A program made the position numbers and the translations under genes. Below are positions 32,958-54,630 of a stretch of DNA of 59,589 bases, piece by piece. This stretch comes from Lentisphaeria bacterium (lineage in GTDB: Bacteria > Verrucomicrobiota > Lentisphaeria > Victivallales > UBA1829): assembly GCA_017646015.1 (NCBI GenBank), contig JAGCNI010000054.1:1-59589 (forward strand). The letters run 5' to 3'. The first letter of the stretch is position 1; the number at the start of each line of letters is the position of its first letter. The notes beneath the pieces are model-generated. The model searched no databases. It saw only the letters and a program-made list of their open reading frames with translations, and had not been told where the DNA came from.

Positions 32958-33701
32958 TCAGACTCCTGCAACGATCCGGACTTGAAAACGATCATCTCTG
33001 GCACGGAGATCCAATGCTTCACTGCTGCTCAAATGGGAAAAACGGACATTGTCAAGATATTTGCCCGCAAGTGCAACAGCCTGTTCCATCTCCGCATCAT
33101 CCGGACGACGCCAGGGTTGTCCGGGAATCGGAATGTAACCACTGATATGAAACGGGATCCGGCGGTCAAGACCTCCCAGAAATCCTGCAAGACCTTCCAG
33201 TTCATCATATCCAACCAACTCCGGAATAAACACAAGATTGGCTGAAAGTTTCATCCCGCGTTCAAACGCATTGCGGAAATTATTATATATCAAATCTTTC
33301 GGACGCCCTGTGATCTTTTCATGCAATACACTGTTCCACGCTTTGAAGCCGATATTGGCTCCATCCAGCAGAGGAATATCCAGACGGCTCCCATTGGTAT
33401 GTCCCAACTGAGTCCATGCCCCAAGTTCCAGTTTGGCAAAACGGATCATCTCATCCAGTTCCACTGCAACAGTCGGTTCTCCCCCCATGAAATACACTTT
33501 TTCAGGATGAAGATCCAATAAAACTTTTTTCAATTCATCCACACCGAGGAATCGTTCCGGTTTCGGTTCTGCAAACCCCGGACGCCCTTGTGCTCCGCTG
33601 CGTAATTTGTAGGAACAATACGGACAACGGAAAGTACAGCCCCAATTGTGAAGTGTGGCAAAACGATATTGCTCATGATAAGTGATCCGGTAAAATGCCA
33701 T
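32958..33701 (-). CDS. Radical SAM protein inside an ABC importer operon
   Basis: The 247-residue protein has a radical SAM cluster motif CTFRCPYC (Cys22, Cys26, Cys29; CX3CX2C), a GGEP-type motif in VYFMGGEPTVAVEL, and TNGSRLDIPLLDGANIGFKAW, typical of small pyruvate-formate-lyase-activating-type proteins. There is no SPASM domain. It starts on the last base of the binding-protein stop codon (TAATG) and ends 4 bp before the permease, so it is embedded in the importer operon. A role in processing the imported ligand or a linked cofactor is an inference; its substrate is unknown. Confidence 0.85.
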   Translation of the reverse strand: MAFYRITYHEQYRFATLHNWGCTFRCPYCSYKLRSGAQGRPGFAEPKPERFLGVDELKKVLLDLHPEKVYFMGGEPTVAVELDEMIRFAKLELGAWTQLGHTNGSRLDIPLLDGANIGFKAWNSVLHEKITGRPKDLIYNNFRNAFERGMKLSANLVFIPELVGYDELEGLAGFLGGLDRRIPFHISGYIPIPGQPWRRPDDAEMEQAVALAGKYLDNVRFSHLSSSEALDLRARDDRFQVRIVAGV

Positions 33702-34516
33702 TATCTCTCAAGTCTTTCTCTTATATATTGAATTGTTTTCAATGGTGATACCCCTTCTGTCAGCAAGTGCCGTGGCACTCCGTAGATCCGTTTTGAACGG
33801 ACCGCAGAAGATGCCGATACCCCCGGTTGAGATGCAAGCCTGACTGGATCTCCGCTTCCCTCCACATAAAAAAGGACTTCCGGAGCTTCCTGACAGACCC
33901 TTTCCGCATTGATCAATCCCGTCCGGCGGATCGGGATCATTCCTCCTGCCGCACGCACAAGATCTCCAATGTATGATTCATTCCCGGCATAACGCCCGGA
34001 TGTATAAAGCTCAAACATCACTTTCGGTATTTTCCTCCCGGTTCTATCCTTTGACACGGAGAGCATCGTCAACTCTTTCCGGAACGCATCGGACAATGCC
34101 GCAGCTTCTTTTTCTTTCCCGGTCAATCTGCCCAGCTGCATAAGAAAATCCGGATACTGTTCCAATCGGACCGGTCCAACTTTTTCAACCCGGATCCCCA
34201 TCCGTTTCAACTCTCTTTCCGCATCATGCTGATAGTACCAGATCACAGCACAGTCGATCCCCAATCCAACCACTTTTTCCCGGGAAAACAGACTCCCTTT
34301 TCCGACAACTGCCGGAGAATCCACTCCCGCAACGATCAAGCCATATTCATCGATCGCCGCCGGTCGGACTCCCAACGCAAGCAACGTATGAGTCGCAGCC
34401 GCAGATAAAGAGAGAATTCTGGCTGGAGCCTTCTGCTCCAGCCCTTGCGGTTCCGGCGAACATCCCGTCAGAAACAGCAGCCCCACCAATAAAAAATTAA
34501 AAAGAATATCCCTCAT
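33701..34516 (-). CDS. BtuF/FecB-like substrate-binding lipoprotein
   Basis: This 271-residue protein has a lipoprotein signal ending LLFLTGC (Cys19) and two lobes of the periplasmic-binding-protein type. RILSLSAAATHTLLALGVRP starts the first lobe and IGDLVRAAGGMIPIRR lies in the second. It would deliver cobalamin or a siderophore to the FecCD-type permease. Its start overlaps the end of the pseudopilin gene by 20 bp. Without binding-site comparison I cannot say whether the ligand is a corrinoid or an iron chelate. Confidence 0.85.
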   Translation of the reverse strand: MRDILFNFLLVGLLFLTGCSPEPQGLEQKAPARILSLSAAATHTLLALGVRPAAIDEYGLIVAGVDSPAVVGKGSLFSREKVVGLGIDCAVIWYYQHDAERELKRMGIRVEKVGPVRLEQYPDFLMQLGRLTGKEKEAAALSDAFRKELTMLSVSKDRTGRKIPKVMFELYTSGRYAGNESYIGDLVRAAGGMIPIRRTGLINAERVCQEAPEVLFYVEGSGDPVRLASQPGVSASSAVRSKRIYGVPRHLLTEGVSPLKTIQYIRERLER

Positions 34517-35541: not shown

Positions 35542-36120
35542 ATGAAGTTGATCAACACTTTGGGATTGTGCGTTTCTGTATGTATGATTCTGGCAGCAAT
35601 GACAGGTTGCGGTGGCGGAAATGCCGTCCCGGAAGAAACGGATGTTCCCAAACAGGAACTCAAACCCGGCATTGAATTCCATGCAAAACTCGCTCATCTC
35701 TATTCCATTCTGAAAACAACAGATCCGTTGCAGAAGACTTGCAGAATCGAATCAGCGGACGCTCTTACCGGTGAACAGATAAAAATGCTTCAGGATATGC
35801 TCAGCTATTACGGCGTCACAGTTGTCAACGCTGATCAGGAAGCATACTACACACTGCTGGTCACATTCCACACGACAACTTTCCGCTGCCGCACAACTTC
35901 CATTCTGGAACTGGATCTGAAAAGCAATTCCAACAACCAGTCTGTCTGGAGTGCCAACAGCCGTTGCAGCGCAAGAGATACGTATTCATCCAAGGCTTTT
36001 GTCTCCTCTCTGATCGCAACTGCCATGACCAATTTCTACCGTTCAGTACAACGGAATGTTGCGAAATCAGATGTACTCCACTTCTACAGTCAGGTTTACA
36101 GCAACAAGGATAATAAATGA
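35542..36120 (+). CDS. Small lipoprotein of unknown function, first gene of the polyene-like operon
   Basis: From the ATG at 35542, preceded by AAAGGA, the protein has 192 residues and a lipoprotein signal MILAAMTGC (Cys23). The mature part has LQDMLSYYGVTVVNADQEAY and YYTLLVTFHTTTFRCRTTSI, resembling small outer-membrane lipoproteins of the DUF4136 style, but I do not recognise the family. Its stop overlaps the ketoreductase start by four bases, so it belongs to the cluster and may act in transport or surface display of the product. Confidence 0.7.
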   Translation: MKLINTLGLCVSVCMILAAMTGCGGGNAVPEETDVPKQELKPGIEFHAKLAHLYSILKTTDPLQKTCRIESADALTGEQIKMLQDMLSYYGVTVVNADQEAYYTLLVTFHTTTFRCRTTSILELDLKSNSNNQSVWSANSRCSARDTYSSKAFVSSLIATAMTNFYRSVQRNVAKSDVLHFYSQVYSNKDNK

Positions 36121-36836
36121 AAGAAGCAATCGTCATCGGCGCAACCAGAGGAATCGGAAAAACGATCGCATTGCGTCTCGCAGCAGATGGATTCAAAGTA
36201 TATGCCACAGGGCGGAATCCGGAAGCGTTGAATAACGGGGTCATTGCAGAAGCGGCAAATGCGGGATACACCATGATCCCCCTGATTTTTGATATGACAG
36301 ACAGAGATGCTGTCAACCGTGTTTATGCTCAGTATTTTCCGGATCACGCCCCGGATGCAGTCGTTTACAACGCCGGAACCAATGCCGATGATCTTTTTGC
36401 TTTCATGTCCCCGGAGGCTTGGGATAAAGTTCTTCATACGAATGTGGATGGTTTTTACAATACAGTTCAGCCGTTGATCGCCAACATGATCGCTCAGAAA
36501 AACGGTAGAGTTGTTGTTATCAGCAGTGTATCCGGAATGACCGGTCAGACAGGTCAGGTCAACTATTCCGCCTCAAAAGCGGCTCTGATCGGTGCGGCAA
36601 AAGCTCTGGCAAGAGAAGTTGCAAGAAAAAATGTACTGGTCAATGTGGTCGCTCCTGGTGTCATTGATACCGATATGACAAAAGATCTCCCGAAAGAACA
36701 TGTACTCCCCCTGATCCCGATGCGGCGTTACGGCGTCACGGAAGAAATCGCCGGAGTGGTCAGTTTCCTCTGCGGTCCGGACAGTTCCTATATGACCGGA
36801 CAGGTTCTCGGGGTCAATGGCGGCATGTATATCTGA
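36117..36836 (+). CDS. 3-oxoacyl-ACP reductase, FabG/ApeQ-like
   Basis: This short-chain dehydrogenase of 239 residues reduces the beta-keto group after each condensation. It has the NADPH motif VIGATRGIGK (Gly8 to Gly14), YNAGTN, the catalytic Ser in VVISSVSGM and Tyr-Lys in NYSASKAAL, plus NVVAPGVIDTDM and the C-terminal GQVLGVNGGMYI. All catalytic residues are present. It overlaps the upstream lipoprotein gene by four bases and lies 15 bp before the flavoprotein gene. In aryl polyene clusters the same activity is called ApeQ. Confidence 0.92.
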   Translation: MKEAIVIGATRGIGKTIALRLAADGFKVYATGRNPEALNNGVIAEAANAGYTMIPLIFDMTDRDAVNRVYAQYFPDHAPDAVVYNAGTNADDLFAFMSPEAWDKVLHTNVDGFYNTVQPLIANMIAQKNGRVVVISSVSGMTGQTGQVNYSASKAALIGAAKALAREVARKNVLVNVVAPGVIDTDMTKDLPKEHVLPLIPMRRYGVTEEIAGVVSFLCGPDSSYMTGQVLGVNGGMYI

Positions 36837-36851
36837 AGCAAGGAATAATTC

Positions 36852-38405
36852 ATGACAACAGACAAGGCTGATACAATACACTGTGATTATTTGATTATCG
36901 GATGCGGGATCTCCGGCATGGCAATGGCACATCTGCTTGCCAAGACCGGTGCTTCGGTGTGTGTCTTGGAACGGGGGACTCATCCCGGCGGATCCATGCG
37001 GCGTTTTTACAGAAAAGGATGTCCGCTGGATACAGGATTCCATTTCACCACAGGACTCTCCGGCGCATTCGGTGATATGTTCCGTTATCTGGGAATGTAT
37101 CAAGCTCTTGAAGAAGTTCCTGTTGATAAAAAAATCTTTCTGGCTGACCGGAACAGGATGTTTGATCTGCCGCGGAGACAGGAAGAGGTCATAGAATATT
37201 ATGCGCAACAATTCCCGGAATATCAGGAACAGATCCGGCATTTTCTCGGACAGGAAAAAAATATTTTTGAAACAACAGCCCTGTTTTCTCTTGATCCGTC
37301 TCATCAATCTCTGTTGACTCAAATCAACTTTACGGAATCCGATATCATCCCGCTTCTGCAATATGTACGAACTCTCGGAATGCCGCCGGAATTGGAAGTG
37401 CTGCTTTGTTCTTTTGCGATCTGCTGCAGCGGAACTCCGGCAAACGAGATCTCTCTTTCCACCCTGTGCCGGATCAATTACGGACTGAATGATAACCTTG
37501 TCCGTTTTGCAGACGGAGGGGATGCAGTGATCGAATGTTTCATGCAGGCTGTTGAAAAATACAATATCCGCCTGTTGACCAATACACAAATTGCGGAATG
37601 TATTCCGGAGGCAGGCAACGGACGGAAAGAATGTCACAAAGTCATCACCTCAACAGGAAAAACGATTACTTTTGACAACTGTATTTTCTCCACACATCCG
37701 ATCGATATTTTCCGTACGATCTCCCCGATTTCCAACAATGTTCTTTTTGCGGAACGGATCCGGGAATTTGAAGAAAGCTGCGGATTTTTCACTTTGTGGG
37801 CAAAAGTCAAAGGCGGGGAAGAAAGAGATATCAACCAACCGCCCAACGCCAGTTTGATCTCCTACCTGAGAAAAACAAAACTGGATACATTGATGTCACC
37901 CGTGGAACCGGACAATACTGCCACCGGAGTGATGACAGTGGAAGAGATCGATTCCACCGGAAAACCATGCGAAACGCTGACTGTTTTTGAAAATGTTTTC
38001 CCGGAAGAGTGTGCGGAATGGGAAGCTACACGAATCGGACAGCGTGGAGCGGCGTATCAGGCGTATAAACAGAAACGATGCGGGGAACTGTTGGAAAAAA
38101 CATACCGTGTCCGTCCGGATCTGGAAGGAAAACTGGAATTCCTTGATTCGGCATCCCAGCTGACATACAGGGATTATCTTTCTCCGTTCGGCTCTGCTTA
38201 CGGTGTCCGTCAGAAAGTCAATCAATTCAATATATTCGGACGTCTGCCGATCCGGAACTTTTATGCGATCGGCCAGAATGCCCTGCTGCCGGGAGTCTTC
38301 GGAGCAATGCAGTCCTCTTTTGTTCTCTGGCGGAAACTGATCGGAGAACAACGGTATCAGCAAGAGATCAGCGAATACAATAAAACCAAAGGATTTATGA
38401 AATGA
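36852..38405 (+). CDS. FAD-dependent phytoene-desaturase/carotenoid-isomerase-like oxidoreductase
   Basis: This 517-residue flavoprotein has an N-terminal FAD-binding motif YLIIGCGISGMAMA (GxGxxG at 17-22) followed by CVLERGTHPGGSMRRF, and YAIGQNALLPGVFGAMQSS near the C-terminus, as in CrtI, CrtISO and retinol saturases. Such enzymes dehydrogenate, isomerise or saturate polyenes. It is not part of the usual aryl polyene gene set but has been linked to ladderane lipid clusters. Its stop overlaps the first ketosynthase start by four bases, so it probably acts on the ACP-bound or released chain. Confidence 0.87.
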   Translation: MTTDKADTIHCDYLIIGCGISGMAMAHLLAKTGASVCVLERGTHPGGSMRRFYRKGCPLDTGFHFTTGLSGAFGDMFRYLGMYQALEEVPVDKKIFLADRNRMFDLPRRQEEVIEYYAQQFPEYQEQIRHFLGQEKNIFETTALFSLDPSHQSLLTQINFTESDIIPLLQYVRTLGMPPELEVLLCSFAICCSGTPANEISLSTLCRINYGLNDNLVRFADGGDAVIECFMQAVEKYNIRLLTNTQIAECIPEAGNGRKECHKVITSTGKTITFDNCIFSTHPIDIFRTISPISNNVLFAERIREFEESCGFFTLWAKVKGGEERDINQPPNASLISYLRKTKLDTLMSPVEPDNTATGVMTVEEIDSTGKPCETLTVFENVFPEECAEWEATRIGQRGAAYQAYKQKRCGELLEKTYRVRPDLEGKLEFLDSASQLTYRDYLSPFGSAYGVRQKVNQFNIFGRLPIRNFYAIGQNALLPGVFGAMQSSFVLWRKLIGEQRYQQEISEYNKTKGFMK

Positions 38406-39658
38406 ATAAAAAACGGTGTGTTATAACAGGAATGGGAGTCGTTTCTCCTTTGGGAAATACACTTGAGCAGTTTTATACAGGACTGCGTTCCGGTCTTTGC
38501 GGGATTCGTGAAATGACGGAATGGGACATTGCCGGAGCGGGAACAGCGGATGCAACTTATTTCGGTTCTCCGGTGGAACTGGATGAAAAATTTATCAAAT
38601 CCCTGCCCCGTTCCATGCGGCGTTCCATGAGTAAAATTTCACTCTATGCCTCCTGCGCTGCATTGCAAGCGATTGAACAGGCAGGTTTGCAGATCGGAGA
38701 ATTGAATAACCAACGGACAGGATGTATCATCGGTTCCACCATGGGCGGAACAAGTGCCATTTCGGAAGCATACAGGATCGTTACTTTCGGAAAAGGTTTG
38801 GAAGAGATGTCTTCCATGCAGTTCTTCAAAAGTGTCTCGCATACAGCTGTATTCAACGTATCTCATTTTTTGAATATCACCGGAACAGTCATGGCACCCT
38901 GTGCGGCATGTGCCTCGGCATTACAGTCGATCGGGCACGCAATGGAATTGATTTCATTCGGAAAACAGGATATTGTTGTCTGCGGTGGTGCGGAAGAATT
39001 GGCACCGGAAGTATCCGGCTCTTTTGAAGTGATCTATGCGGGAGTATCCTCCACCCGGATGAAAGATCCGAAACAATGTTCCCGTCCGTTTGACAGTCGT
39101 CGCAGCGGACTGGTCTGCGGAGAAGGTGCCGGCATTTTTGTTTTGGAAGAATTGGAACATGCCAAAGCCCGCGGAGCTGAAATTCTGGCAGAAGTTGTCG
39201 GTTATGCCACCTGCGGCTGCGGAACACAGATCAGCCAGTCCGATGCACCAGCCATCCGGAAATGTCTTGAAATGGTCTATGCCGATGCGGAAATCTCACC
39301 GGATCAGACGGATTATATCAATGCTCATGCGACCTCCACTTTGCAGGGGGATTTTTCAGAAGCAACAGCGATCCGTGAATTTTTCGGAGAAAAAACACCT
39401 CCGGTCAGCAGTCTGAAAGGACATATCGGTCATACGCTGGGAGCATCCGGAGCATTGGAACTGGCGGCTTCATTGAAAATGATGCAGGAATCGGAAATCA
39501 TCCCGACACTGAATCTGGAATCGCCGGGCGAAGGATGTGAAGGAATTGATCATGTCATGGCGGAACCCCGGAAAAAACAATTGGATCTGATCCTGAAAAA
39601 CAGTTTTGCATTCGGCGGGATCAATGCCGCTCTGCTTTGTAAAAAATATCAGAATTAA
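38402..39658 (+). CDS. Beta-ketoacyl-ACP synthase II-type ketosynthase (KS1)
   Basis: This is a full-length ketosynthase of 418 residues. The catalytic triad is intact: Cys170 in PCAACASALQS, His in NAHATSTLQGD and His in GHIGHTLGASG. The C-terminal SFAFGGINAALL is typical of FabF. It performs decarboxylative Claisen condensation of malonyl-ACP with the growing chain. It is followed by the first ACP gene 30 bp downstream. It is the longest and most FabF-like of the three complete ketosynthases in the operon. Confidence 0.95.
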   Translation: MNKKRCVITGMGVVSPLGNTLEQFYTGLRSGLCGIREMTEWDIAGAGTADATYFGSPVELDEKFIKSLPRSMRRSMSKISLYASCAALQAIEQAGLQIGELNNQRTGCIIGSTMGGTSAISEAYRIVTFGKGLEEMSSMQFFKSVSHTAVFNVSHFLNITGTVMAPCAACASALQSIGHAMELISFGKQDIVVCGGAEELAPEVSGSFEVIYAGVSSTRMKDPKQCSRPFDSRRSGLVCGEGAGIFVLEELEHAKARGAEILAEVVGYATCGCGTQISQSDAPAIRKCLEMVYADAEISPDQTDYINAHATSTLQGDFSEATAIREFFGEKTPPVSSLKGHIGHTLGASGALELAASLKMMQESEIIPTLNLESPGEGCEGIDHVMAEPRKKQLDLILKNSFAFGGINAALLCKKYQN

Positions 39659-39688: not shown

Positions 39689-39997
39689 ATGGAACGTACA
39701 GAACTTATCGCAGCAATCAACAAAACGTTTGTAGAAACCCTGGAAGTCCCCGAAGAAGATCTCAAGCCGGAAGCTCAGATTTTTGCGGATCTCGGACTGG
39801 ACAGTTTGGATATGGTTGATTTGATGATCGGTCTGCAGCGCCGTTTCGGGATCTCTCTGCGTCAGAGTGAAGAAATGCGTCAGATCGTGACCCTCAATGA
39901 CCTCTATGATTTCTTTGAAAAACTGGAAAAGCAGGAAAAGGCACAAGGGGTCGATACCGACAGCAAAATCAAAGAGATCATGAATCAGGATAAATAA
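39689..39997 (+). CDS. Acyl carrier protein 1
   Basis: This 102-residue protein has the phosphopantetheine site DLGLDSLDMVDLM, with Ser39 as the attachment residue. An AAGGAA ribosome-binding site precedes the start. A hydrophilic C-terminal extension of about 20 residues (KAQGVDTDSKIKEIM) goes beyond the standard ACP fold. It carries intermediates for the cluster's ketosynthases. It sits between KS1 and the PlsC-like acyltransferase. Confidence 0.95.
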   Translation: MERTELIAAINKTFVETLEVPEEDLKPEAQIFADLGLDSLDMVDLMIGLQRRFGISLRQSEEMRQIVTLNDLYDFFEKLEKQEKAQGVDTDSKIKEIMNQDK

Positions 39998-40024: not shown

Positions 40025-40780
40025 ATGTTTATTTCGACTCTGATCTATGTCCAGTTTCTGTTTTGCACAGCGGTCTATACCATTCTTGCGGCTCCGTTCT
40101 GCACGTGGGGAATGATCCGTGCAAAACTCCTGAAACGGGGCGATGCGGGCGATGTCATACGGTATTTTATTCTGCTGTATGGAAAAACGATCCTGCGTTT
40201 TGTCTTCCCGCCATGGATCAGACTCCGTTATGAAAATACCGATGGAACTTCCTGTTGCGGAGGGATCTATGTTTTCAACCACCGTTCAGCCTCCGATCCG
40301 TTTCTGGTGGCTGCGGTTTCGGAGATTCCTCCTGCACAGATTGCCAATGATTGGCCCATGCGACTTCCCTTTCTCGGATTTTTTGCCCGTCTCGGCGGAT
40401 ATATTGACATCAAAAATCTGACCTATGAGGAAGTGTTGAAAAAAGTCAGAGAACTGGTATCCCGTGGGATTCCGGTCATGGCTTTTCCCGAGGGAACACG
40501 CTCCGGCAACAGACAGATGAATCAATTTTATTCGACTGTTTTCCGGGTGGCAAAAGAGCTTGAATGTCCTCTGACACCGGTCGTCATTGCAGGAAATGAA
40601 GAAATCCCGAACCGTCAATTCAAAATGAAATGCGGTCATATTCTGATCCGGAAACTGCCTCCGCTTGATCCGGAAATGCTCCGTTCAGAAAGTGCATTTG
40701 TCATAAAACAGAAAATCCGTTCCATCATCTTGGAAGAAAGCATGCGAATGGATGCGATCTTAGATCAAAAAGGTAAATGA
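40025..40780 (+). CDS. PlsC-like 1-acyl-glycerol-3-phosphate acyltransferase-type protein
   Basis: The 251-residue protein has two N-terminal hydrophobic segments and the PlsC domain with NHRSASDPF (His86 and Asp91, the HX4D catalytic pair) and FPEGTRSGN. It could transfer the finished acyl or polyene chain from ACP to a glycerol- or sugar-based acceptor. Aryl polyene clusters also contain such an acyltransferase. Its stop and the ligase start overlap by four bases. No mutation in the catalytic motifs is seen. Confidence 0.9.
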   Translation: MFISTLIYVQFLFCTAVYTILAAPFCTWGMIRAKLLKRGDAGDVIRYFILLYGKTILRFVFPPWIRLRYENTDGTSCCGGIYVFNHRSASDPFLVAAVSEIPPAQIANDWPMRLPFLGFFARLGGYIDIKNLTYEEVLKKVRELVSRGIPVMAFPEGTRSGNRQMNQFYSTVFRVAKELECPLTPVVIAGNEEIPNRQFKMKCGHILIRKLPPLDPEMLRSESAFVIKQKIRSIILEESMRMDAILDQKGK

Positions 40781-42060
40781 TGTTCAATTATTCAAAAGAA
40801 ACCGAATTTCTCTCCCTGCCGGGGCTCACTCAGCTGCAAACCCGGAAAATGCGGGAACATCTTGCGTACTGCAAGGCTCATTCCCCGTTTTACAAAGATA
40901 AACTCAAGGATATAGATCCGGAAACTTTCACGCTGGATAATATTGGAGCATTGCCTTTCACGACCAAAGATGATATTGTGGAAAATCAGGATACCTTCCT
41001 TGCCTGTACAGAAAAAGATTTCAGAGATATTGTTTTCACCTCCGGAACAACCGGGGAACCGTGCCGTTTTATCTACACACAAAACGACTTGGAACGCAAC
41101 GCCTACAATGAAGAACGTTGTTTCTGTACAGCCGGAGTCAATGCGGAAGACCGGATTCTGCTGACTTGCACACTCGACCGTTGTTTTATTGCCGGAATGG
41201 CGTACTACATGGGCGGAATGAAAACAGGGGCGTCTGTTTTGAGAAATGGGCTCTCCTCGATTGAAAGTCATCTCTGGATCATCCGGAAAGTCCGTCCGAC
41301 TGTTATTGTCGGGATCGCTTCATTTCTGGTGAAACTGGCTGAACTGGCACAACGTGAAAATGTTTCTCTCGATCATATCCGTTGTCTGATTTGTGTCGGA
41401 GAGCCGATCAAAGATGAAAAATTTGTATTGAACGGGATCGGCAGCCGTCTCCAGCAATTCTATCCGCATGCGGAACTGTTTGCGACCTATGCCTCCACAG
41501 AAATCACCACCGGTTTTTCGGAATGTTCCTGTCATTGCGGCGGACACCAACCGGCAGATCTCGCCTATCTTGAGATCATTGATGAAAATGGCAATACAGT
41601 TCCGCCCGGACAGCCCGGCGAAGTCGTTGTCACTCCTTTCGGTATCACCGGTATGCCGCTGATCCGGTTCCGGACAGGCGATATCAGCTTCATGCTTTCT
41701 GAACCGTGTCGATGCGGGCGCAATACGCCGCGGCTCGGTCCGATCCTCGGACGGAAAAAACATTTACTGAAATATAAAGGCACCTCGATCTATCCGCAAG
41801 TGATATTCAATACACTTACAGCGATCCCGGGTATCGACAACTATTATGTTGTTGCCTATGGTGAAGATCTTTCCGACTCGATCGAAGTTGTGATTTCCAC
41901 GACCGATCCGGCGTTAACACCGGAATCAGTACAGCGTCAACTTTCCGTGACCTGCCGAGCCCGTATTCCGGTTGTGATCCGGGATACAGCGGAAGTCGCC
42001 GCCATGGTCTTCGGTTCTTCCCGAAAACCGCAGCATTTCTTTGATAAACGGGGAGAATAA
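40777..42060 (+). CDS. Phenylacetate-CoA ligase-like (PaaK-family) adenylate-forming enzyme
   Basis: The 427-residue protein matches the PaaK family: FTSGTTGEPCRF adenylate-binding loop, ATYASTEITTGF, IRFRTGDISFM and a Cys-rich SECSCHCGGHQ segment that resembles the metal-binding loop of this family. It probably activates an aromatic or other carboxylic acid as a starter unit. It lies between the PlsC-like gene (four-base overlap) and the SPASM-dehydratase fusion (2-bp gap). The substrate is unknown, and no ammonia-lyase that would make a cinnamate or coumarate starter is seen in the window. Confidence 0.88.
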   Translation: MMFNYSKETEFLSLPGLTQLQTRKMREHLAYCKAHSPFYKDKLKDIDPETFTLDNIGALPFTTKDDIVENQDTFLACTEKDFRDIVFTSGTTGEPCRFIYTQNDLERNAYNEERCFCTAGVNAEDRILLTCTLDRCFIAGMAYYMGGMKTGASVLRNGLSSIESHLWIIRKVRPTVIVGIASFLVKLAELAQRENVSLDHIRCLICVGEPIKDEKFVLNGIGSRLQQFYPHAELFATYASTEITTGFSECSCHCGGHQPADLAYLEIIDENGNTVPPGQPGEVVVTPFGITGMPLIRFRTGDISFMLSEPCRCGRNTPRLGPILGRKKHLLKYKGTSIYPQVIFNTLTAIPGIDNYYVVAYGEDLSDSIEVVISTTDPALTPESVQRQLSVTCRARIPVVIRDTAEVAAMVFGSSRKPQHFFDKRGE

Positions 42061-42062
42061 AG

Positions 42063-43331
42063 ATGTCTTTGCCGGAACAGCTTCAGAAAAGTATGACAGA
42101 AAATCCAGCTCCTGTTCATGCGGAGATTTCTGTTTTGGAAATAGAACTTTCCGGTTTGACAATGTCCGCAAAACAGGAGGAATGGCAGAAAATCGGAGTT
42201 CAGAAAATCATTCTTCATGCGGATAAGACACTGGACAGTCAAAGGGTTCTGGAATATGCCCGGACACTCCGGCAGAATGGATTGCAGACAGAACTTCTGA
42301 TTCCTGCGGATCTGCGGAATGAATATGATGACCCGACAGGGCTCCGGCTGTTCTGCCGTGCTGGAACCGATGCGGAAGTGGAAGAACTCTGCAATGACAG
42401 CAAGCTCTGCGGAATTGAATTGATCTATACCGGGGCAGACGCTGTTTCCGATTTTGTCAAAGCCGCACAACGATGCAAAGCAGCCTCATTGGAAGTCCGC
42501 TTCGGATGTTCCGATGCGTTCATCAATGCTTCTCTTGAAGAGATACGGAAAATTGCTGATGCAAATGAACGATCCCCCTACCCTGTTGGAATGAATTGTA
42601 TGCGTGCGATCAATTCCTGTTTCATTGCCGCTGACGGAGAAGTCTATCCCTGTCAGGGCTGTCGTATTTCCATGGGGAATATGAAAGAAACCTCTCTGCA
42701 TGAAATTTTGCAGAACAGTACGGTTTTTTCGTTTTACCGTAATTTCCGTGAACAGTTGAAAAAGCCCTGCCGGGATTGTGCGATTTTCGGACAATGTGTC
42801 GGCTGTCGCGGCAGAGCCTACCATGCCACAGGAGATTTTCTGGCAGCGGATCCGGCATGTCCGCGTTCCGAAAAGGAACATGATAAAATTCTTTCTCTGC
42901 CGATTCGGGATCCGGCAAATTATATGCCGCATAAACCGCCGATGTTGATGGTTTCAACACTGCATACTGTGGCGGATAATCTTTGTGAAACAGACTGCAC
43001 AGTGGCGGAAGACAACCCGTTTCTGCGGGAAGATTCCACATTGCATCCGTCGGCATTCATTGAAATCGGAGCGCAGAGTCTGGCATTTCTGGATACGTTC
43101 CTGCATCCGGGAAAACATCTGAACGGGATGTTAGTCGAAGTCATGCGTTTTGAAAATAAAAAAGAAAAAATCAAGGTTGGAGATACCTTGTTTATCATCT
43201 GCCGGAAAAGTTATGAAATGCCGCCGTGGAGTATCGGGGAATTTGAAATTTTCCGGGATCACGCAAACGGCAAACCTGTTGCCAAAGGAGAATTGAAAGT
43301 ATGCCAATTCAGTGCTGCGGAAAAACCCTGA
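42063..43331 (+). CDS. Radical-SAM-like/SPASM protein lacking the SAM-cluster motif, fused to an ApeP-like dehydratase
   Basis: In this 422-residue fusion, residues about 20-175 resemble the later part of a radical SAM barrel but contain no CX3CX2C motif. Residues 179-266 carry the SPASM-type pattern: Cys186-x5-G-x4-Cys197, then Cys200, Cys236, Cys239, Cys245, Cys248 and Cys266. From about residue 280 a hotdog dehydratase-like domain begins with NYMPHKPPMLMV (His290), followed by HPSAFIEIGAQSLAF (Glu334), as in ApeP-type dehydratases. The SAM-binding cluster should therefore be absent while auxiliary Fe-S binding may remain. The start at 42063 is 2 bp after the ligase stop, leaving no room for a missing N-terminus. 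Confidence 0.8.
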   Translation: MSLPEQLQKSMTENPAPVHAEISVLEIELSGLTMSAKQEEWQKIGVQKIILHADKTLDSQRVLEYARTLRQNGLQTELLIPADLRNEYDDPTGLRLFCRAGTDAEVEELCNDSKLCGIELIYTGADAVSDFVKAAQRCKAASLEVRFGCSDAFINASLEEIRKIADANERSPYPVGMNCMRAINSCFIAADGEVYPCQGCRISMGNMKETSLHEILQNSTVFSFYRNFREQLKKPCRDCAIFGQCVGCRGRAYHATGDFLAADPACPRSEKEHDKILSLPIRDPANYMPHKPPMLMVSTLHTVADNLCETDCTVAEDNPFLREDSTLHPSAFIEIGAQSLAFLDTFLHPGKHLNGMLVEVMRFENKKEKIKVGDTLFIICRKSYEMPPWSIGEFEIFRDHANGKPVAKGELKVCQFSAAEKP

Positions 43332-43927
43332 TCACTCTCTTCCTCGGACTGTTTTTCCTGACCTTATCCGGAGCAACGGAGGCAGAAAATTTTTTTGCAG
43401 GAACAGCGGGCATCCGAACGATCAGTTCCCCATTTACTCAAAACAGAAAAATCCGGGGCTTGAGCCGTCCGATCAAAGTGACCGGACAATTTTATATGGA
43501 TCGCGCCGGCAGATTTGCATGGATCACAGAAACACCGATCCGTTATTTCTGTATTATTGAAAACAAACAACTCCGTCAATGGGATGCGGCTTCGGGGAAA
43601 AGTATCACATTGGATTTGAAACGTCATGCGGCATTGGCGGCGATGTCGGATTCAATGACCAATTTTTTTGCAGGAAGGATTCCCAATCTGGAACAGAATT
43701 TCAAATATAAAATTCTCTCTGCACACAAAATTGTTCTGACACCGCAGAAAGGTGCAATGGCATATGAGATCCTGGAAAGTCTTGAAGTGACATTATCACA
43801 AAACAAACGGGGCGTGGAACATGTCAGGATCCGGGAAAAAAACGGCGATATGACAGAGATCCATTTCTATAAATTGCAATTTGATCAGGAGATTCCCCCG
43901 GAGATCTGGAAAACAGGGGGACGTTGA
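43301..43927 (+). CDS. LolA-like outer-membrane lipoprotein carrier
   Basis: The protein has 208 residues. A signal peptide (about residues 1-28, ending TLSGATEAEN) precedes a LolA-fold body with SSPFTQNRKIRGLSRPI, FYMDRAGRFAWITETPIRYF and MTEIHFYKLQFDQ. LolA-like proteins in aryl polyene clusters are thought to carry the lipid product across the periplasm. The start lies 31 bp inside the preceding fusion gene and the stop overlaps the MMPL gene by four bases. It probably works with the MMPL exporter. Confidence 0.88.
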   Translation: MPIQCCGKTLITLFLGLFFLTLSGATEAENFFAGTAGIRTISSPFTQNRKIRGLSRPIKVTGQFYMDRAGRFAWITETPIRYFCIIENKQLRQWDAASGKSITLDLKRHAALAAMSDSMTNFFAGRIPNLEQNFKYKILSAHKIVLTPQKGAMAYEILESLEVTLSQNKRGVEHVRIREKNGDMTEIHFYKLQFDQEIPPEIWKTGGR

Positions 43928-46905
43928 TGAAACATTTTCTGACCGGATTCTTTCTGTTTGAGATCCGTTACCGCAAATATTGTATTGCAGCAGTCGTTAT
44001 CTGCCTGCTTTTATCCCTGATCCCGGTATTCAAAGCGAGTTACACTACCGACATGTTTCTGCTTTTTCCGGAACGCTCGGAGTCAAGGAATAATCTCAAT
44101 GCGATCATGAAAAGCGGAATGCTCAACAGGGTCACGGTCTATTTTTCCCGTAAGGACGGACAACCTTTTTCTGATTTCAAAGTTCTTTCCTTTTTGAAAA
44201 AGAGTGCTGCTGAACTGCAAAAAGATCCCCGGATCCATGATGTTCTGTACAGCCCGGATAATATCTCTGTTGCGGGGGCTGTTCCGGAAATGATTCGTTT
44301 CATTCCCCAGTATATGCCGCCGGAAAAACTGCCGGACACGGCTCAGATGGAAAAAATTCTGCAAGACGGCTTCAACCGTCTGATTTTCAATCCGTTTGCG
44401 CTTTCCGATATGCTGCGGAACGATCCGTTTTCTTTCACGATGCCCTATTTCCGGAAATTGGAAGAGATGATGCAAATCTACAGTTTCCGTTTTGCCCCGG
44501 ATACACCTTACCTTGTTTCTCCGGACAAACGGTTTGCCATGATGGTGATCCTGACCGATGTGACAGCGGCAGATTACCGGGCATGTCAGAAACTGTTGGA
44601 TTTGATCCATTCCGTTCTTTCTCCGTCACAAGCGGAAAAGGCTGGCTTGCGGACGGAGATTTTTTCAGCCCATACGCACACATTGGACAACCAGCAGGGG
44701 ATCACCCGGGATTTGAAAATTTTTGCGATCACAACTGTAATCATCTTTACACTGTTGTTTGCAGTTGTGTACCGTTTTGACTGGCGCGGCTTTCTGATTC
44801 CTGTGATTCCGGGGATCGCAACCGTTTTTGCGACTGCCCTCATGGCGATGCTGATCAAAGACATCCAGGTGTTCACACTCGGGATCGGCGGAGTATTGAT
44901 TGGATTGGGCGGAGATTACGGGATCCATTTATATGCAGCAAGTCTCTCAAAACGCGGGATTCGCAAAGGAGTTGAAATGCTGCCGGGATTATTTTATGCG
45001 TTTCTCACGACATCACTGGCATTTTTCTGTTTTATTTTTACAGGAGTTCCTGCATTTACTCAATTCGGGATTTTTGCATTTTTCTCTCTTCTCTTCACGT
45101 TTGTGCTGATGATCCTGCTCTTGCCCGGACTTCTTTTCAAAAAAGATAAAAAACATCAATCAATGGATTTTTACAAATATCTCTGTTTCCGTCCGCCGTA
45201 TAAACTTTCCCTGCTGTTGCTGGGAGTGATCATTCTGGTGTTGTTTATCGGATGCGGAATCACGAAATTTGATCCGGACATCCGGAAGTTTGATATATCT
45301 TTCAATATGAACGGCGGACGTGAAAAATTATGTCAGCAGGCATTTGCCGGAGGACAACAGCCTGTACTTCTTTTGTATCATGGCAAAAGTGAAGATGAAC
45401 TTTTTGCCAAGATGCGGAAAGATCAAGCAATTCTGCGGAAAGAAATTCCGGCGAATGAATTGGTTTCCGGAACAGATTTTTTCATGGAACGTTCTCTCCG
45501 GGAGAAAAATCTTGCAAAATGGAAATCTTTTCTGCAATCAGAAAAGTGGATCCTGTTTCAAAAACAATTTCTGTTACGTGCCCGGAAAGCCGGATTTGAA
45601 AAAGAATTTTTTCAACCATTTTTCAAAAATCTCACCGACGGGATCGGACAGGATGCAGATCAAACCCCGCAACTGCTCACCTTTGCGAAACGGTCGATGT
45701 TCAGTGAAAATGAAAACGGATTTTATGGTATTGCCATGGCAGATCTCCGCCATGATAAAGTTCTGCGACAGAAAAGTTCTGCGATCGTGCTCTCTGAAAA
45801 AAGTGTATTGAATGGAATGTTCCGCGATATTACAGGAAATCTGCCGCAACTGATTCCCTGGATCATTATACTGATCCTGTGTATCATGGGGATATTCCTG
45901 CGATCACTCAAAAAAATCCTTCTCTCTTTTTTCCCGATGTATTTCAGTTTGCTTGCGATCATCGGGCTGCATGGTTTGGCGGGAATGAATGTTACGCTGG
46001 CAGTGGGTGTTTCGTGCATCATCACGGTCGGGATCTCTGTGGACTACGGATTGCTGCTGATTTCGGAACAAAGTCAGGATTTTCAGGGGATCTTCAATGC
46101 AGTCACTTTTTCAGCGATCACCACGGCAGCCGGCGGCATGACAGTTATTTTCACACAACATCCGATGCTCCGTGCAGCGGGGTTGACGATCATCGCCGGA
46201 ATCCTTGCGGCATGGAGCGTATCGGTCTATATCATTCTGCCGTTTCTTCAGAAAAAACACAGTGGAAAAACAAGCGGACTCATTGTGATCTGTATATTTG
46301 CTCTGACTCTTTTCAGCGGATGTACATACAAACCATTCGGGGAACAGCAGTACGAATCTCTTCCGGAAAATATCAAAATATCCGATCCGGTATCAAAATC
46401 AGGCGCATTTCAGGCGACAGCAGTTGTGGATTATTATTTTGGCAGTGTAACATTTCTGCTGGCTGGCGAAGTTACTCCGGAAAAATGTGTGATCTACGGA
46501 ATGAATCCGGCAGGATTCCGGCTTTTTGAATTGGAGGGAAACCGGAAAGGTTTATTGCATTACAAATGGCAGAAAGCAATCATCAGCGGAGAACAGGAAA
46601 AGCGGATTTCCAACTTTTTATATGATGCAATTTCTTCATTTTTCTACATTCCGGAGCTTTCCGAACCATTTCAACAAAGAAAAATGCAAAAAGATGTACT
46701 GCAACTCAATGCAAAAATTTGCGGAAAGGGGATTTATGCTGTATATTATTCGGGTAAAAAACCGCAGATGATGAAAATCACTTGCGATACAGAAAAAAAA
46801 GATTGGGAGATCCGGATCTATCCGGAACAGATCCGGGGAGAAATTCCGTACACCTATGAATCCGGCACCCTGCTGCGGGCGGGAATCAGACTTACGGTAT
46901 TTTAA
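43924..46905 (+). CDS. MMPL/RND-type lipid exporter fused to a C-terminal lipoprotein domain
   Basis: Residues 1 to about 785 of this 993-residue protein form an MMPL exporter with two six-helix blocks. Landmarks are FTLGIGGVLIGLGGDYGIHL in the first block and VSCIITVGISVDYGLLLISE in the second, plus two periplasmic loops. After the last helix a new signal-like segment appears, KTSGLIVICIFALTLFSGC, with a lipobox-type Cys800. A DUF3261-like lipoprotein domain then follows to the end. In aryl polyene clusters these two functions are normally separate genes. No stop or good internal start codon separates them here. Confidence 0.87.
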   Translation: MMKHFLTGFFLFEIRYRKYCIAAVVICLLLSLIPVFKASYTTDMFLLFPERSESRNNLNAIMKSGMLNRVTVYFSRKDGQPFSDFKVLSFLKKSAAELQKDPRIHDVLYSPDNISVAGAVPEMIRFIPQYMPPEKLPDTAQMEKILQDGFNRLIFNPFALSDMLRNDPFSFTMPYFRKLEEMMQIYSFRFAPDTPYLVSPDKRFAMMVILTDVTAADYRACQKLLDLIHSVLSPSQAEKAGLRTEIFSAHTHTLDNQQGITRDLKIFAITTVIIFTLLFAVVYRFDWRGFLIPVIPGIATVFATALMAMLIKDIQVFTLGIGGVLIGLGGDYGIHLYAASLSKRGIRKGVEMLPGLFYAFLTTSLAFFCFIFTGVPAFTQFGIFAFFSLLFTFVLMILLLPGLLFKKDKKHQSMDFYKYLCFRPPYKLSLLLLGVIILVLFIGCGITKFDPDIRKFDISFNMNGGREKLCQQAFAGGQQPVLLLYHGKSEDELFAKMRKDQAILRKEIPANELVSGTDFFMERSLREKNLAKWKSFLQSEKWILFQKQFLLRARKAGFEKEFFQPFFKNLTDGIGQDADQTPQLLTFAKRSMFSENENGFYGIAMADLRHDKVLRQKSSAIVLSEKSVLNGMFRDITGNLPQLIPWIIILILCIMGIFLRSLKKILLSFFPMYFSLLAIIGLHGLAGMNVTLAVGVSCIITVGISVDYGLLLISEQSQDFQGIFNAVTFSAITTAAGGMTVIFTQHPMLRAAGLTIIAGILAAWSVSVYIILPFLQKKHSGKTSGLIVICIFALTLFSGCTYKPFGEQQYESLPENIKISDPVSKSGAFQATAVVDYYFGSVTFLLAGEVTPEKCVIYGMNPAGFRLFELEGNRKGLLHYKWQKAIISGEQEKRISNFLYDAISSFFYIPELSEPFQQRKMQKDVLQLNAKICGKGIYAVYYSGKKPQMMKITCDTEKKDWEIRIYPEQIRGEIPYTYESGTLLRAGIRLTVF

Positions 46906-46929: not shown

Positions 46930-47301
46930 ATGAATGTTCCTGAAATGGTTGACAGAAATCTTCAACTGCTGGAAACAGAATCCGGCAGTTACAGAGCGTT
47001 GCTCCATATTGACAGCGACTTTGTTGCTTTCCGCGGGCATTTTCCGGATGAACCGATCCTGCCGGGAATCACCTATCCGGTAATTGCAGAACGTTTTGCC
47101 TGCAAGGCTCTGAATAAAACATTGATCCTGACTGCATTGAAACGGACTAAATTTTTTCAGCCTGCATTTCCGGGAGTCACTCTTCATATCTCAGGAAAGT
47201 TTACGGATAACACAGAAAATATCACCGGAGATGTGATTTTCACGGATGATGCCAGTAATAAACTCAGTCAGGTGAAACTGACACTGGAGAAATACGCATG
47301 A
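46930..47301 (+). CDS. ApeI/FabZ-like 3-hydroxyacyl-ACP dehydratase
   Basis: The 123-residue hotdog-fold protein has VAFRGHFPDEPILPG with catalytic His37, the signature of FabA/FabZ and ApeI dehydratases. It removes water from 3-hydroxyacyl intermediates to make the conjugated double bonds. The second dehydratase would be the C-terminal domain of the SPASM fusion, so two dehydratases are present as in aryl polyene pathways. Its stop overlaps the thioesterase start by four bases. Confidence 0.9.
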   Translation: MNVPEMVDRNLQLLETESGSYRALLHIDSDFVAFRGHFPDEPILPGITYPVIAERFACKALNKTLILTALKRTKFFQPAFPGVTLHISGKFTDNTENITGDVIFTDDASNKLSQVKLTLEKYA

Positions 47302-47774
47302 AAGCAAGAAACACTGTTTTCAAAGATCCGGAAGGCGCACCCCGTCCGGTGGAAACAACAGTCTCACACAGGATCTATTTCAATGAAACAGATGCCCTGG
47401 GAATTGTCTGGCATGGAAATTATCCTGTCTATTTTGAACAGGCTGTGACAGAACTGCTCCACAAACTCGGGATGTCTCCTCATCAACTGCATCAGGCAGG
47501 AGTGGGAACCCCGTTGGCACAACTGCATATCGATTATAAAATTCCGCTGTATCTGGATGAGACCATTCAGACCACAGCCAAGCTGCATTGGCATGATGGC
47601 CCCCGGTTGAATTTTGAATTGAGTATTCAGAATGAAAAAGGTGAAATTGCCTGTCGTGCAACGATCGTACAGATGTTTATCGACCTTGCCACCAGAAATG
47701 CGCTCTGGTGTTCACCGCCGATTTGGGAAGATTGCAAGAAAAAATGGATCGCGGGGGAATTTTACCGTGACTGA
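47298..47774 (+). CDS. 4-hydroxybenzoyl-CoA thioesterase-type acyl-CoA/ACP thioesterase
   Basis: This 158-residue YbgC/4HBT-type hotdog protein has HRIYFNETDALGIVWHGNY with Asp32 and His39, followed by Glu47. That is the pattern of catalytic residues in the 4-hydroxybenzoyl-CoA thioesterase subfamily. It probably releases or proofreads ACP- or CoA-bound intermediates. It overlaps KS2 by eight bases. Such a thioesterase is a regular member of aryl polyene clusters. Confidence 0.9.
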   Translation: MKARNTVFKDPEGAPRPVETTVSHRIYFNETDALGIVWHGNYPVYFEQAVTELLHKLGMSPHQLHQAGVGTPLAQLHIDYKIPLYLDETIQTTAKLHWHDGPRLNFELSIQNEKGEIACRATIVQMFIDLATRNALWCSPPIWEDCKKKWIAGEFYRD

Positions 47775-48870: not shown

Positions 48871-49475
48871 AAAAAATACAATGGAAAATCTCCGGCGGAG
48901 CTCTGATAGAAAATGTCACAGCAGAAATGCTGATACAGGATAAAACATTTTCGGCAGAAACCTTACGGAAATTATATGATGAAACAATCGCTGGATCGCA
49001 GAAATTTCTGCACAAGGAGGAAAAATTCAACCGTATCGGTGGACGTTCCGCGACATCTGTCATTGCTGCATTGCTGGCTTTACAGGATGCCGGGATCCGT
49101 GAAATCGATCCGGAAAAAACGGGGATCCTCGGAATCGGAAGATCCGGTTCCCATCCGGAAAATCTGCGTTACTGGAATGATTATGATCTGAACGGCAGAA
49201 TCAGTGGCAGAGGTCATTATTTTGTCGGAACTCTTGCATCGACTCCCTTGTGTGAAGTTGCCATTACGTTGGGAGTCCGCGGTCCGGTGCTTTATCTGGA
49301 TCCGGGGAAAGATGCGGAGGCGTTATATCAGGAATTGTATTTTTACGAATCGGATTGCGACAGAGTTCTTTTGTGTGCTGTCAATCTGACTCATACCCGT
49401 TGTCTGCTCCTCGAAAAAGGAACAGAAGAACGTTTCCCTGAAATGCTCCGGGAAATAACTGGAGGTCTGGAATGA
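48867..49475 (+). CDS. Half-size ketosynthase-like protein 1 (possible chain-length-factor partner)
   Basis: The 202-residue protein resembles only the N-terminal half of a ketosynthase. Landmarks are SATSVIAALLALQDAGI, TGILGIGRSGSHPENLRYWN, LASTPLCEVAITLGVRGPVL and DRVLLCAVNLTHTRC. The region that should hold the nucleophile reads YLDPGKDAEALY, so no catalytic Cys is present, and both active-site His motifs are missing with the C-terminal half. Short, noncatalytic partners (ApeC-like) are known in aryl polyene systems. It would pair with KS2, whose gene it follows with a four-base overlap. The family call is by eye. Confidence 0.65.
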   Translation: MKKIQWKISGGALIENVTAEMLIQDKTFSAETLRKLYDETIAGSQKFLHKEEKFNRIGGRSATSVIAALLALQDAGIREIDPEKTGILGIGRSGSHPENLRYWNDYDLNGRISGRGHYFVGTLASTPLCEVAITLGVRGPVLYLDPGKDAEALYQELYFYESDCDRVLLCAVNLTHTRCLLLEKGTEERFPEMLREITGGLE

Positions 49476-50788
49476 AAATCCTGCTGATATCAGCCAATGA
49501 ATGTGTTGAACCCTATCAGGTATATCCTTTGGGGATGAGTGTTGCCGCCCGTGCTTTTCAGGAAGCCGGATGCGAAGTTTCTCAGGCAGACATCATGCTG
49601 CACAAACTGGATGGAATACGAAAGCTGCTGACCGACAACGACTATGATCTTGTCGGGATCAGTATCCGCAACATTGATACTGTCAACAGTGTATGTCCCA
49701 ATGCAGATCTTGTCAAAACGACATTGAAGATCACAGCCCTGTGCCGTGAATGTTGTTCTGCCAAAATTCTTCTGGGCGGATCCGGTTTCACATTACTGCC
49801 GGAAGTCATTCTGGAATGCAGCGGAGCGGATTACGGGATCATCGGCGAAAGCGAAGAAGCGATCCGGCAGTTTACAGAGATTTTCCGGAAAGGGGAAACT
49901 CCGCCCCGTCTGATCCGGGGTGTTCCCTCCCGACAGCTTGCACCGTTGTATGATGATGCCATTCTGGAATATCATATCAAATACACGCATACCATTCCGA
50001 TCCAGACAAAACGGGGATGTCCCTGTAACTGTGTGTACTGTACTTATCCCGCTCTGGAAGGGAAAAAAATCCGTCAGCGGGAGATCGACACGATCGTTGA
50101 TCAAATTGAATATTATCATAAGAAATATCCGGACTGTCTTTTCTTTTTCGTGGACTCGATCTTCAATGATCCCTGCGGGGAATATAAAGAATTTCTCAAA
50201 GCGATGAAAGCCCGTTGCGGAGCTGTTCCGTTCAACTGTTTTATCACACCCGGCGGTTTGAGCGATGAAGATATTGAATTTCTTTATGACAGCGGAATGT
50301 TGCTGACCGAAATCGGGATCGATGCGGCAAGTGATACGACCTTGAAAGGAATGGGAAAAGATTTCACCTTTGATCAGGCACTGCATTGTGTCCGGAAAAT
50401 GCAGGAATTGAAAATCCGTGTATTCAGTTCTGTCATGTTCTGCGGTCCACTGGAAACATATGACACGATCCGGGAAGGGATCGAAAATCTGAAAAAACTT
50501 GCGCCCTCCTTTACCGGAGTCTTCTCCGGGGTGCGAGTTCTGCCGGAAACAGCCTTATACCGTTATGCAGAAAAACAGGGAGCGATCCCATCGGACTGGA
50601 ACGGGATCTCTTCGCTTTATTTTTTTGAAAAAGGCTTGGATCAGGCGACCGTGCACAACATGCTGCTGGAAGCGTTCAAAGATACTCCCGGAATCATTTA
50701 TCCGCCCAACGATCAGGATAAATTTCTGAGAACTGTTCACAAGATCGGCTATCTGAATTTCAGAGAATTTATGGGAGAAGGTCAATGA
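49472..50788 (+). CDS. Cobalamin-binding-domain radical SAM protein
   Basis: This 438-residue class B-type radical SAM protein has an N-terminal B12-binding-like Rossmann domain (about residues 1-150, with VGISIRNIDT, ILLGGSGFTLLP and YGIIGESEEA). A radical SAM core follows with KRGCPCNCVYC (Cys183, Cys187, Cys190). The classical DxHxxG cobalamin motif is not seen, which is common in this class. Such enzymes methylate unactivated carbons or rearrange lipids. The gene is coupled by four-base overlaps to the half-ketosynthase and the glycosyltransferase. It is unusual for an aryl polyene cluster and is the most likely source of unusual chemistry. Confidence 0.87.
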   Translation: MKILLISANECVEPYQVYPLGMSVAARAFQEAGCEVSQADIMLHKLDGIRKLLTDNDYDLVGISIRNIDTVNSVCPNADLVKTTLKITALCRECCSAKILLGGSGFTLLPEVILECSGADYGIIGESEEAIRQFTEIFRKGETPPRLIRGVPSRQLAPLYDDAILEYHIKYTHTIPIQTKRGCPCNCVYCTYPALEGKKIRQREIDTIVDQIEYYHKKYPDCLFFFVDSIFNDPCGEYKEFLKAMKARCGAVPFNCFITPGGLSDEDIEFLYDSGMLLTEIGIDAASDTTLKGMGKDFTFDQALHCVRKMQELKIRVFSSVMFCGPLETYDTIREGIENLKKLAPSFTGVFSGVRVLPETALYRYAEKQGAIPSDWNGISSLYFFEKGLDQATVHNMLLEAFKDTPGIIYPPNDQDKFLRTVHKIGYLNFREFMGEGQ

Positions 50789-54036: not shown

Positions 54037-54629
54037 ATAAAATCATCTCCGGAGTGCAGTATTCCGGACAGAAAGCGTATGCTGAGATCAAACGGAAATA
54101 TGAAATCCCGCGTCTTCCGGAATATTTTCTGCATCTGCTGCAAACCGCAGATTCACTTGAGATCCCGACAGAAAAACTGCCGCGGATGGGAATTCTCTAT
54201 GTTTCCCACCTCGGACCGATGGGACAGATCGTACATTTCATGAATGATTTGATGGACTATACGCCGGATCAGGTCAGTCCGAAATATTTTTCGCACGGAG
54301 TCTTCAATGCACCGACCGCCTACCTTTCCCGTTATCTGGGTTGTCATGGTCCGGCATTGAGTCTCTGTGGATTCAGCCGGATCATAGAATCCTCCATCCG
54401 TACAGCGGCATCATGGCTGGCAACCGGGAGTTGTGAGAATATTCTGCTGATTTTTTCGGATGAAGATATACCATTTTCGCAGGAGATCAGCAGCATGACC
54501 GGATTGCAGCGTTTTCTTCCGACACATGCACTCTGGCTCAGTTCAGAACCGGATGACCCCAATGCAAAGCAGATCACTGCGGATGACCTGATCCAACAAA
54601 TTACCGTTATCAATCAACAGGAGCAATAA
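54027..54629 (+). CDS. Half-size ketosynthase-like protein 2 (possible chain-length-factor partner)
   Basis: The 200-residue protein matches the N-terminal half of the ketosynthase fold: GILYVSHLGPMGQIVHFMND, HGVFNAPTAYLSRYLG, GPALSLCGFSRIIES and CENILLIFSDED. At the position of the catalytic Cys the aligned residue is Ser in CGFS, with the only Cys three residues earlier, and the His motifs are absent because the C-terminal half is missing. It overlaps KS3 by ten bases and lies 1 bp before ACP2. A KS3-partner role like that of a chain-length factor is likely but is inferred. Confidence 0.65.
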   Translation: MYLNKIISGVQYSGQKAYAEIKRKYEIPRLPEYFLHLLQTADSLEIPTEKLPRMGILYVSHLGPMGQIVHFMNDLMDYTPDQVSPKYFSHGVFNAPTAYLSRYLGCHGPALSLCGFSRIIESSIRTAASWLATGSCENILLIFSDEDIPFSQEISSMTGLQRFLPTHALWLSSEPDDPNAKQITADDLIQQITVINQQEQ

Positions 54630-54630
54630 T

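Follow-up and report, generated by a model that had tools for sequence, protein, structure and literature searches.

The gene at positions 42,063 to 43,331 of the window, the stretch of 59,589 nucleotides from a Lentisphaeria bacterium (contig JAGCNI010000054.1) that was analysed here, encodes a derived, radical-dead member of a family of fused enzymes in which a radical SAM/SPASM protein is joined to an ApeP-type dehydratase. In its intact form this fusion is widespread, with representatives in at least 80 genomes of several phyla including many anaerobic bacteria, and apparently has no existing name. The window protein is probably the ApeP-type dehydratase of a polyene-type lipid cluster, with its radical-making part decayed. 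The decayed variant itself is of less interest than the family it belongs to, in which a natural series of losses can be followed: the intact fusion, the dead core with Fe-S ligands, the dehydratase alone and an ammonia-lyase in its place allow a testable guess at the function of the radical half, and the decayed forms pose the question of what a SPASM domain does once the radical chemistry is gone.

The fusion gene forms 422 open codons, starting 3 nt past the stop codon of the upstream ligase gene, and its GC content by codon position is similar to that of the neighbouring genes. It is divided as follows:

42063..43331, + strand: whole gene, 422 aa; decayed radical-SAM barrel, SPASM domain and ApeP-type dehydratase, a decayed form common to the homologues L031, L032 and L043
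42063..42575, + strand: residues 1-171, degenerate radical-SAM (beta/alpha) barrel; CX3CX2C, GGEP, FTNG, KLN and TPQG are all gone
42576..42872, + strand: residues 172-270, SPASM domain (PF13186) with Cys 179, 186, 197 and 248, and Cys 236, 239, 245 and 266
42873..43328, + strand: residues 271-422, ApeP/FabZ-type hotdog dehydratase with His290 and Glu334, matched by 6qsr_B of the ApeI:P heterocomplex

The Pfam profile PF13186 matched residues 179-239 with 43.8 bits (E=3e-11, cut-off 21.5), and eight cysteines are present where seven to eight are conserved in SPASM domains. The radical SAM profile PF04055 had no match in the window protein. This confirms the initial annotation, which had described SPASM-type cysteines after a barrel-like region without CX3CX2C. 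Its list of cysteines (186, 197, 200, 236, 239, 245, 248 and 266) was nearly right: Cys179 had been missed, Cys200 had to be rejected as a ligand as it is not conserved among the intact relatives, and the others stand. By analogy to AhbD and anSME, Cys179/186/197/248 are predicted to be the ligands of AuxI and Cys236/239/245/266 those of AuxII. A PDB sequence search with the SPASM part of the window protein led to PqqE, and a profile of the intact relatives retrieved SkfB and PqqE besides 6qsr_B.

For the C-terminal domain the ApeP-like profile PF22817 scored 13.9 bits at residues 284-342, which is under the cut-off of 27, and hence the dehydratase assignment rests on the matches to 6qsr_B. 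The phmmer value for this structure was 0.009 with the window protein alone and 9e-11 with the family profile of intact relatives, and 6qsr_B (ApeP of ApeI:P) was also the top Foldseek match of the window-protein model (1.7e-9). Both catalytic positions were confirmed, His290 in MPHKPPM and Glu334 in IEIGAQ, so that the ApeP-like hotdog domain proposed earlier is borne out by sequence and fold. The AlphaFold2 model has a mean pLDDT of 71, with values mostly between 81 and 96 in the dehydratase part. The barrel and SPASM parts, for which the alignment rows were intact relatives, were modelled with moderate confidence (mostly 55-85), and strands and helices alternate in the predicted barrel from residue 34 to 166. 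For a model of residues 1-272 (mean pLDDT 67) PqqE 6c8v was the sole match below 0.001, though the alignment of intact relatives may favour PqqE.

The window genome is a draft of 137 contigs and is 79% complete, and an assembly error, a frameshift or a pseudogene might explain the missing radical-SAM core. We found CX3CX2C in no frame of 41701-43400, and none of these frames convincingly matched the barrels of intact radical-SAM proteins; therefore no upstream segment is hidden there. The 422-codon frame is open, the dehydratase and the SPASM cysteines are under constraint, and the same decay is seen in three other assemblies. An artefact of this kind, the outcome which the initial annotation had named as fatal to its reading, is thus hardly conceivable. 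The three other genomes carry a decayed fusion with conserved SPASM cysteines and no CX3CX2C, which is the recurrence that had been suggested as a check. The fusion had been called an unfamiliar architecture; the decayed form does recur, and it is no one-off, since the radical-SAM/SPASM/ApeP fusion commonly occurs in its intact form.

Among 61 relatives the strong matches were mostly open frames of ~490 codons with CX3CX2C. Scanning GTDB with the alignment of intact relatives gave 162 encoding loci, of which 80 were kept; the patterns of this alignment lie in the barrel and the scan is blind to decayed forms. A single-sequence scan of genome contigs gave no confirmed match. According to the MAG labels as deposited, the 80 loci belong to Lentisphaerae/Victivallales, Verrucomicrobia, Kiritimatiellae, Omnitrophota and Nitrospirae, as well as to Geobacteraceae and other Deltaproteobacteria, Brocadiaceae and Bacteroidales. 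The three radical-SAM cysteines and the invariant SPASM cysteines were found in 80/80, and the dehydratase was complete in all but one, which is ended by a contig edge. In 100 non-redundant intact relatives CX3CX2C and the cysteines at positions 179, 197, 236, 239, 245, 248 and 266 were each present in 100/100 and Cys186 in 88/100. The position of the dehydratase His was occupied by His in 72 and by Gln in 27, and the Glu was present in 97. Those 27 fusions with Gln and an intact radical core (L069, L077, L082, L087, L095, L107 and L123 among them) are the mirror image of the window protein, and a motif search in their vicinity did not reveal a further dehydratase carrying the His motif. An apparent TGA recoding in the matches from G010 and G017 turned out to be the stop codon that separates the ligase gene from the fusion gene.

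Four intact members that were tested lie outside every NCBIfam equivalog; the nearest were AhbD (110-137 bits) and NirJ2 (103-129 bits), with cut-offs of 500. No name for the radical-SAM/SPASM/ApeP fusion was found in NCBIfam or in the literature searched, where we also encountered no paper with a relevant link between SPASM and aryl polyenes, and no radical SAM enzyme is named in the flavoaffinin paper. The window protein shares with this family the SPASM domain joined to ApeP and the flanking FlxY ligase and LolA genes, and lacks the intact radical-SAM core.

Full-length decayed fusions were found only in the window genome (G000), G016 (L031), G002 (L032) and G060 (L043) among the 137 genomes of the order, and no further ones were seen among 388 genomes of the phylum. 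The decay is concentrated in the barrel, where the window protein is 15-16% identical to intact relatives and comparisons with decayed forms range from 15 to 27% overall, versus 46-68% for intact pairs. The corresponding identities in the decayed-form comparisons are 39-51% for the SPASM domain and 35-54% for the dehydratase. At positions that are invariant in the intact family the window protein retains 0/3 barrel cysteines, 6/30 other barrel positions and 7/7 SPASM cysteines. Across the four decayed proteins the numbers are 0/12 for the barrel cysteines and 36/120 for the other barrel positions, 28/28 for the SPASM cysteines versus 64/96 for the remaining invariant positions of that domain (Fisher p=6e-5, with no correction for shared ancestry), and 31/32 for the dehydratase invariants, with His and Glu of the dehydratase kept in all four. 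As every SAM and cluster motif is lost, the window protein should not make radicals. The excess of retained cysteines over other SPASM positions indicates that the auxiliary-cluster ligands look selected after the loss of the radical chemistry, and from these sequence comparisons selection seems to have preserved the SPASM cysteines together with the active site of the dehydratase. The initial claim of descent from a radical SAM/SPASM enzyme that lost the SAM cluster site and kept the auxiliary ligands is thereby supported.

A tree of the SPASM and dehydratase parts requires two changes: it unites the window protein with G016 and G002 (100/99) and places G060 with the intact G014 (100/94). The fusion gene alone does not reject a single decayed clade (p-AU 0.24). 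Such a single origin is rejected by six concatenated neighbour genes (p-AU 2e-12), and we therefore consider it likely that the decay happened twice independently, assuming a common history of the cluster genes.

The neighbouring genes in the window are:

36117..36836, + strand: ketoreductase, ApeQ-like (PF00106/PF13561)
36852..38405, + strand: CrtI/phytoene-desaturase-like flavoenzyme (PF13450, PF01593; TIGR02733 and relatives under cut-off)
38402..39658, + strand: ketosynthase (PF00109/PF02801)
39689..39997, + strand: acyl carrier protein, from sequence and place; conserved in synteny
40025..40780, + strand: lysophospholipid acyltransferase (TIGR00530, 54 bits, under the cut-off of 103)
40777..42060, + strand: FlxY/PaaK-like acyl-CoA ligase (NF053551, 393 bits, under the cut-off of 520), upstream of the fusion in most loci
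43301..43927, + strand: LolA-like carrier, ApeL (PF03548, 41 bits), the usual downstream neighbour of the fusion
43924..46905, + strand: RND/MMPL exporter, ApeM-like (PF03176), with a lipobox-like C-terminal extension
46930..47301, + strand: ApeI-like dehydratase (PF22818, 29.6 bits, cut-off 28.5), presumed partner of the ApeP-type domain
47298..47774, + strand: 4HBT thioesterase, ApeK-like (PF13279)
49472..50788, + strand: B12-binding radical SAM enzyme TIGR04072 (rSAM_ladder_B12; 431 bits, cut-off 360)

KS, CLF, ACP, KR, ApeI/P, TE, LolA and RND occur together here, as in aryl polyene clusters, and the genes correspond to those listed for the E. coli aryl polyene cluster (PMC8253772), with radical SAM genes in addition. 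We are fairly confident that it is an aryl-polyene/flexirubin-like type II PKS cluster, the product class being a prediction from the gene content. Most intact fusions belong to a single conserved cluster of aryl-polyene/ladderane-like type, in which the FlxY-like ligase and LolA flank them, and the recurrent order KR-CrtI-KS-ACP-LPLAT-FlxY-[fusion]-LolA-RND-ApeI-TE-KS-CLF-B12rSAM-GT spans the fusion lineages, although some of its genes are missing or rearranged in places. From about residue 790 (46267-46905) the RND exporter runs on for ~200 C-terminal residues past a lipobox-like LFSGC; this extension had no Pfam match and resembles an ApeN/LolB-like lipoprotein fused to ApeM. A second set of KS, CLF, ACP, a 451-aa protein and an AMP-ligase is located at 52855-57565, and in L042 and L046 the same set precedes the cluster.

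On this basis the hotdog domain would pair with the ApeI-like protein encoded at 46930 and dehydrate ACP-bound intermediates as the polyene chain is extended. One or two [4Fe-4S] clusters may still be bound by the SPASM domain; they would stabilise the fold and orient the dehydratase or partner proteins, the domain thus serving as a structural or positioning element. We consider this the most likely mode of action of the window protein: an ApeP dehydratase whose SPASM domain has been retained as an Fe-S scaffold.

The retained cysteines might instead serve docking or electron relay to another intact radical SAM enzyme, either the B12 enzyme at 49472, as first proposed, or a relative in trans. 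The B12 enzyme is indeed found in the clusters of the window, G002 and G016, and G002 has, apart from the decayed copy in its cluster, an orphan relative whose radical-SAM/SPASM part is intact and which has no dehydratase (L033:8994-10028; outside any polyene cluster, near a QueH-like gene). However, G060, a genome that is 98% complete, carries a decayed fusion with neither a TIGR04072 gene nor an intact copy of the fusion, the window genome has no orphan intact copy (at only 79% completeness), and in the locus stretch examined the B12 enzyme accompanies some intact fusions and is absent with others. Because G060 lacks that enzyme, docking to it is hardly the general reason for the retention, though it is possible in the window strain; the original proposal is weakened and we consider docking or relay unlikely overall.

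Further losses were observed at the place of the fusion. In genus g5 a stand-alone dehydratase occupies this place and nests with the fusions L038 and L043, and in G190 the order is FlxY, stand-alone dehydratase, LolA; in G264 and G391 FlxY is directly followed by LolA and the whole fusion is absent. At L049, L050 and L237:8228-8641 the protein at the fusion's place is a stand-alone ApeP-type dehydratase with the radical-SAM/SPASM half wholly gone. The dehydratase thus outlasts the other parts of the fusion. We dropped the idea that loss of FlxY is linked to loss of the radical half in g5, as these genomes keep FlxY elsewhere. The g5 and G190 dehydratases and the two genomes without a fusion would fit a degradation still in progress, in which SPASM is a passenger that folds around its clusters, has no role of its own and is yet to be lost. 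The cysteines, however, are retained without exception across long branches and two likely independent decays, above the other invariant SPASM positions, so this explanation appears doubtful. The sister clusters with a stand-alone dehydratase, and hence no SPASM, also speak against a redox-gated dehydratase, for which the auxiliary clusters would sense oxygen or the redox state and switch the enzyme. The fusion of Fe-S ligands to a dehydratase and their retention after the loss of radical chemistry are compatible with such gating, but no regulatory feature was seen, and we judge it very improbable. A structural or positioning role of the SPASM domain remains our preferred reading.

The losses also bear on the original function of the radical half. 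In G041 (L196:7652-9235) an aromatic ammonia-lyase, HutH/FlxA-like with 491-513 bits, is flanked by the FlxY-like ligase on one side and a stand-alone ApeP-ApeI protein on the other, precisely the place of the radical half elsewhere. In the 388 genomes of the phylum we counted 38 with the fusion, 52 with the FlxY-like ligase and 27 with the lyase, and 0 with fusion and lyase together. When only FlxY-positive genomes are considered, the lyase is present in 0/36 with the fusion versus 5/16 without it (p=0.0017, kinship ignored), a pattern that comes from about three lyase lineages. Several FlxY-positive lineages (G190, G264, G391 and G401) have neither lyase nor fusion, and no ammonia-lyase was found in the window genome (79% complete). 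A short contig of G364 (L245:1572-5655) carries an ammonia-lyase that adjoins a TIGR04072-related B12 radical SAM enzyme.

Since the lyase stands in the place of the radical half, and NCBIfam names the FlxA tyrosine ammonia-lyase as a flexirubin biosynthesis gene, the radical half may supply the aryl starter, and the pattern suggests that it made one. With less confidence than for the dehydratase, we propose that the intact radical half supplied an aromatic starter for the FlxY ligase. The decayed lineages keep FlxY, so that, if this reading is right, they would obtain their starter in another way. The full version of this idea is tentative: the fusion would be an anaerobic starter-unit enzyme, with the radical half delivering an aromatic acid for FlxY without a tyrosine ammonia-lyase and the dehydratase half acting on the growing chain, and in the window lineage the radical half would be dead, with its Fe-S domain retained to serve the dehydratase in a new way that involves no radical.

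Several known systems resemble parts of this protein. The ApeP of the ApeI:P complex (PDB 6qsr, Xenorhabdus doucetiae; PMC8253772) has the same hotdog fold, His/Glu pair, nearby ApeI-like gene and kind of cluster; it is a stand-alone protein, whereas the window domain follows a dead radical-SAM barrel and a SPASM domain in the same chain and misses the PF22817 cut-off. The SPASM cysteine pattern is common to AhbD, NirJ, PqqE and SkfB, and the AhbD motif CX2CX5CX2CX17C (PMC10452713) has a spacing identical to that of the window protein. AhbD and NirJ2 were the best NCBIfam profiles and PqqE the best fold, but the window protein lies far under every equivalog cut-off and, unlike these enzymes, lacks CX3CX2C and the SAM-binding motifs. 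By their family names TIGR04347 (pseudo-SAM/SPASM) and TIGR04304 (GeoRSP SPASM) are also SPASM proteins without a working radical-SAM part. The window protein scores 21 bits against the first (cut-off 525) and 51.5 bits against the second (cut-off 300), and neither is named as a dehydratase fusion.

The conserved cluster is like those long proposed for ladderane lipids, in which radical SAM enzymes are without a known reaction. The Kuenenia and Desulfotalea clusters, whose proposed products are ladderanes or polyunsaturated lipids (PMC2649909, PMC4790861), likewise have a SAM radical enzyme beside a PaaK-type ligase, a phytoene-desaturase-like gene, several FabF and an unknown membrane protein. 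The SAM radical enzyme Kuste3343 is numbered next to the phenylacetyl-CoA ligase Kuste3344, and its Desulfotalea counterpart is DP1855 (PMC2649909, PMC4790861). Brocadiaceae and Geobacteraceae MAGs also carry the fusion. Kuste3343 is named only as a SAM radical enzyme in these papers, and the gene order suggests that it may be equivalent to the fusion. Flexirubin clusters, with FlxA tyrosine ammonia-lyase and FlxY ligase, share the FlxY-like ligase, and the lyase of G041 sits in the radical half's place; they differ in that the window ligase stays below the FlxY cut-off and its genome has no ammonia-lyase.

On the opposite strand the window also encodes a small radical SAM protein (32958-34516, - strand) with the motif CTFRCPYC (PF04055, 50 bits), which adjoins genes for a periplasmic binding protein and an ABC transporter resembling those for B12 or metal uptake.
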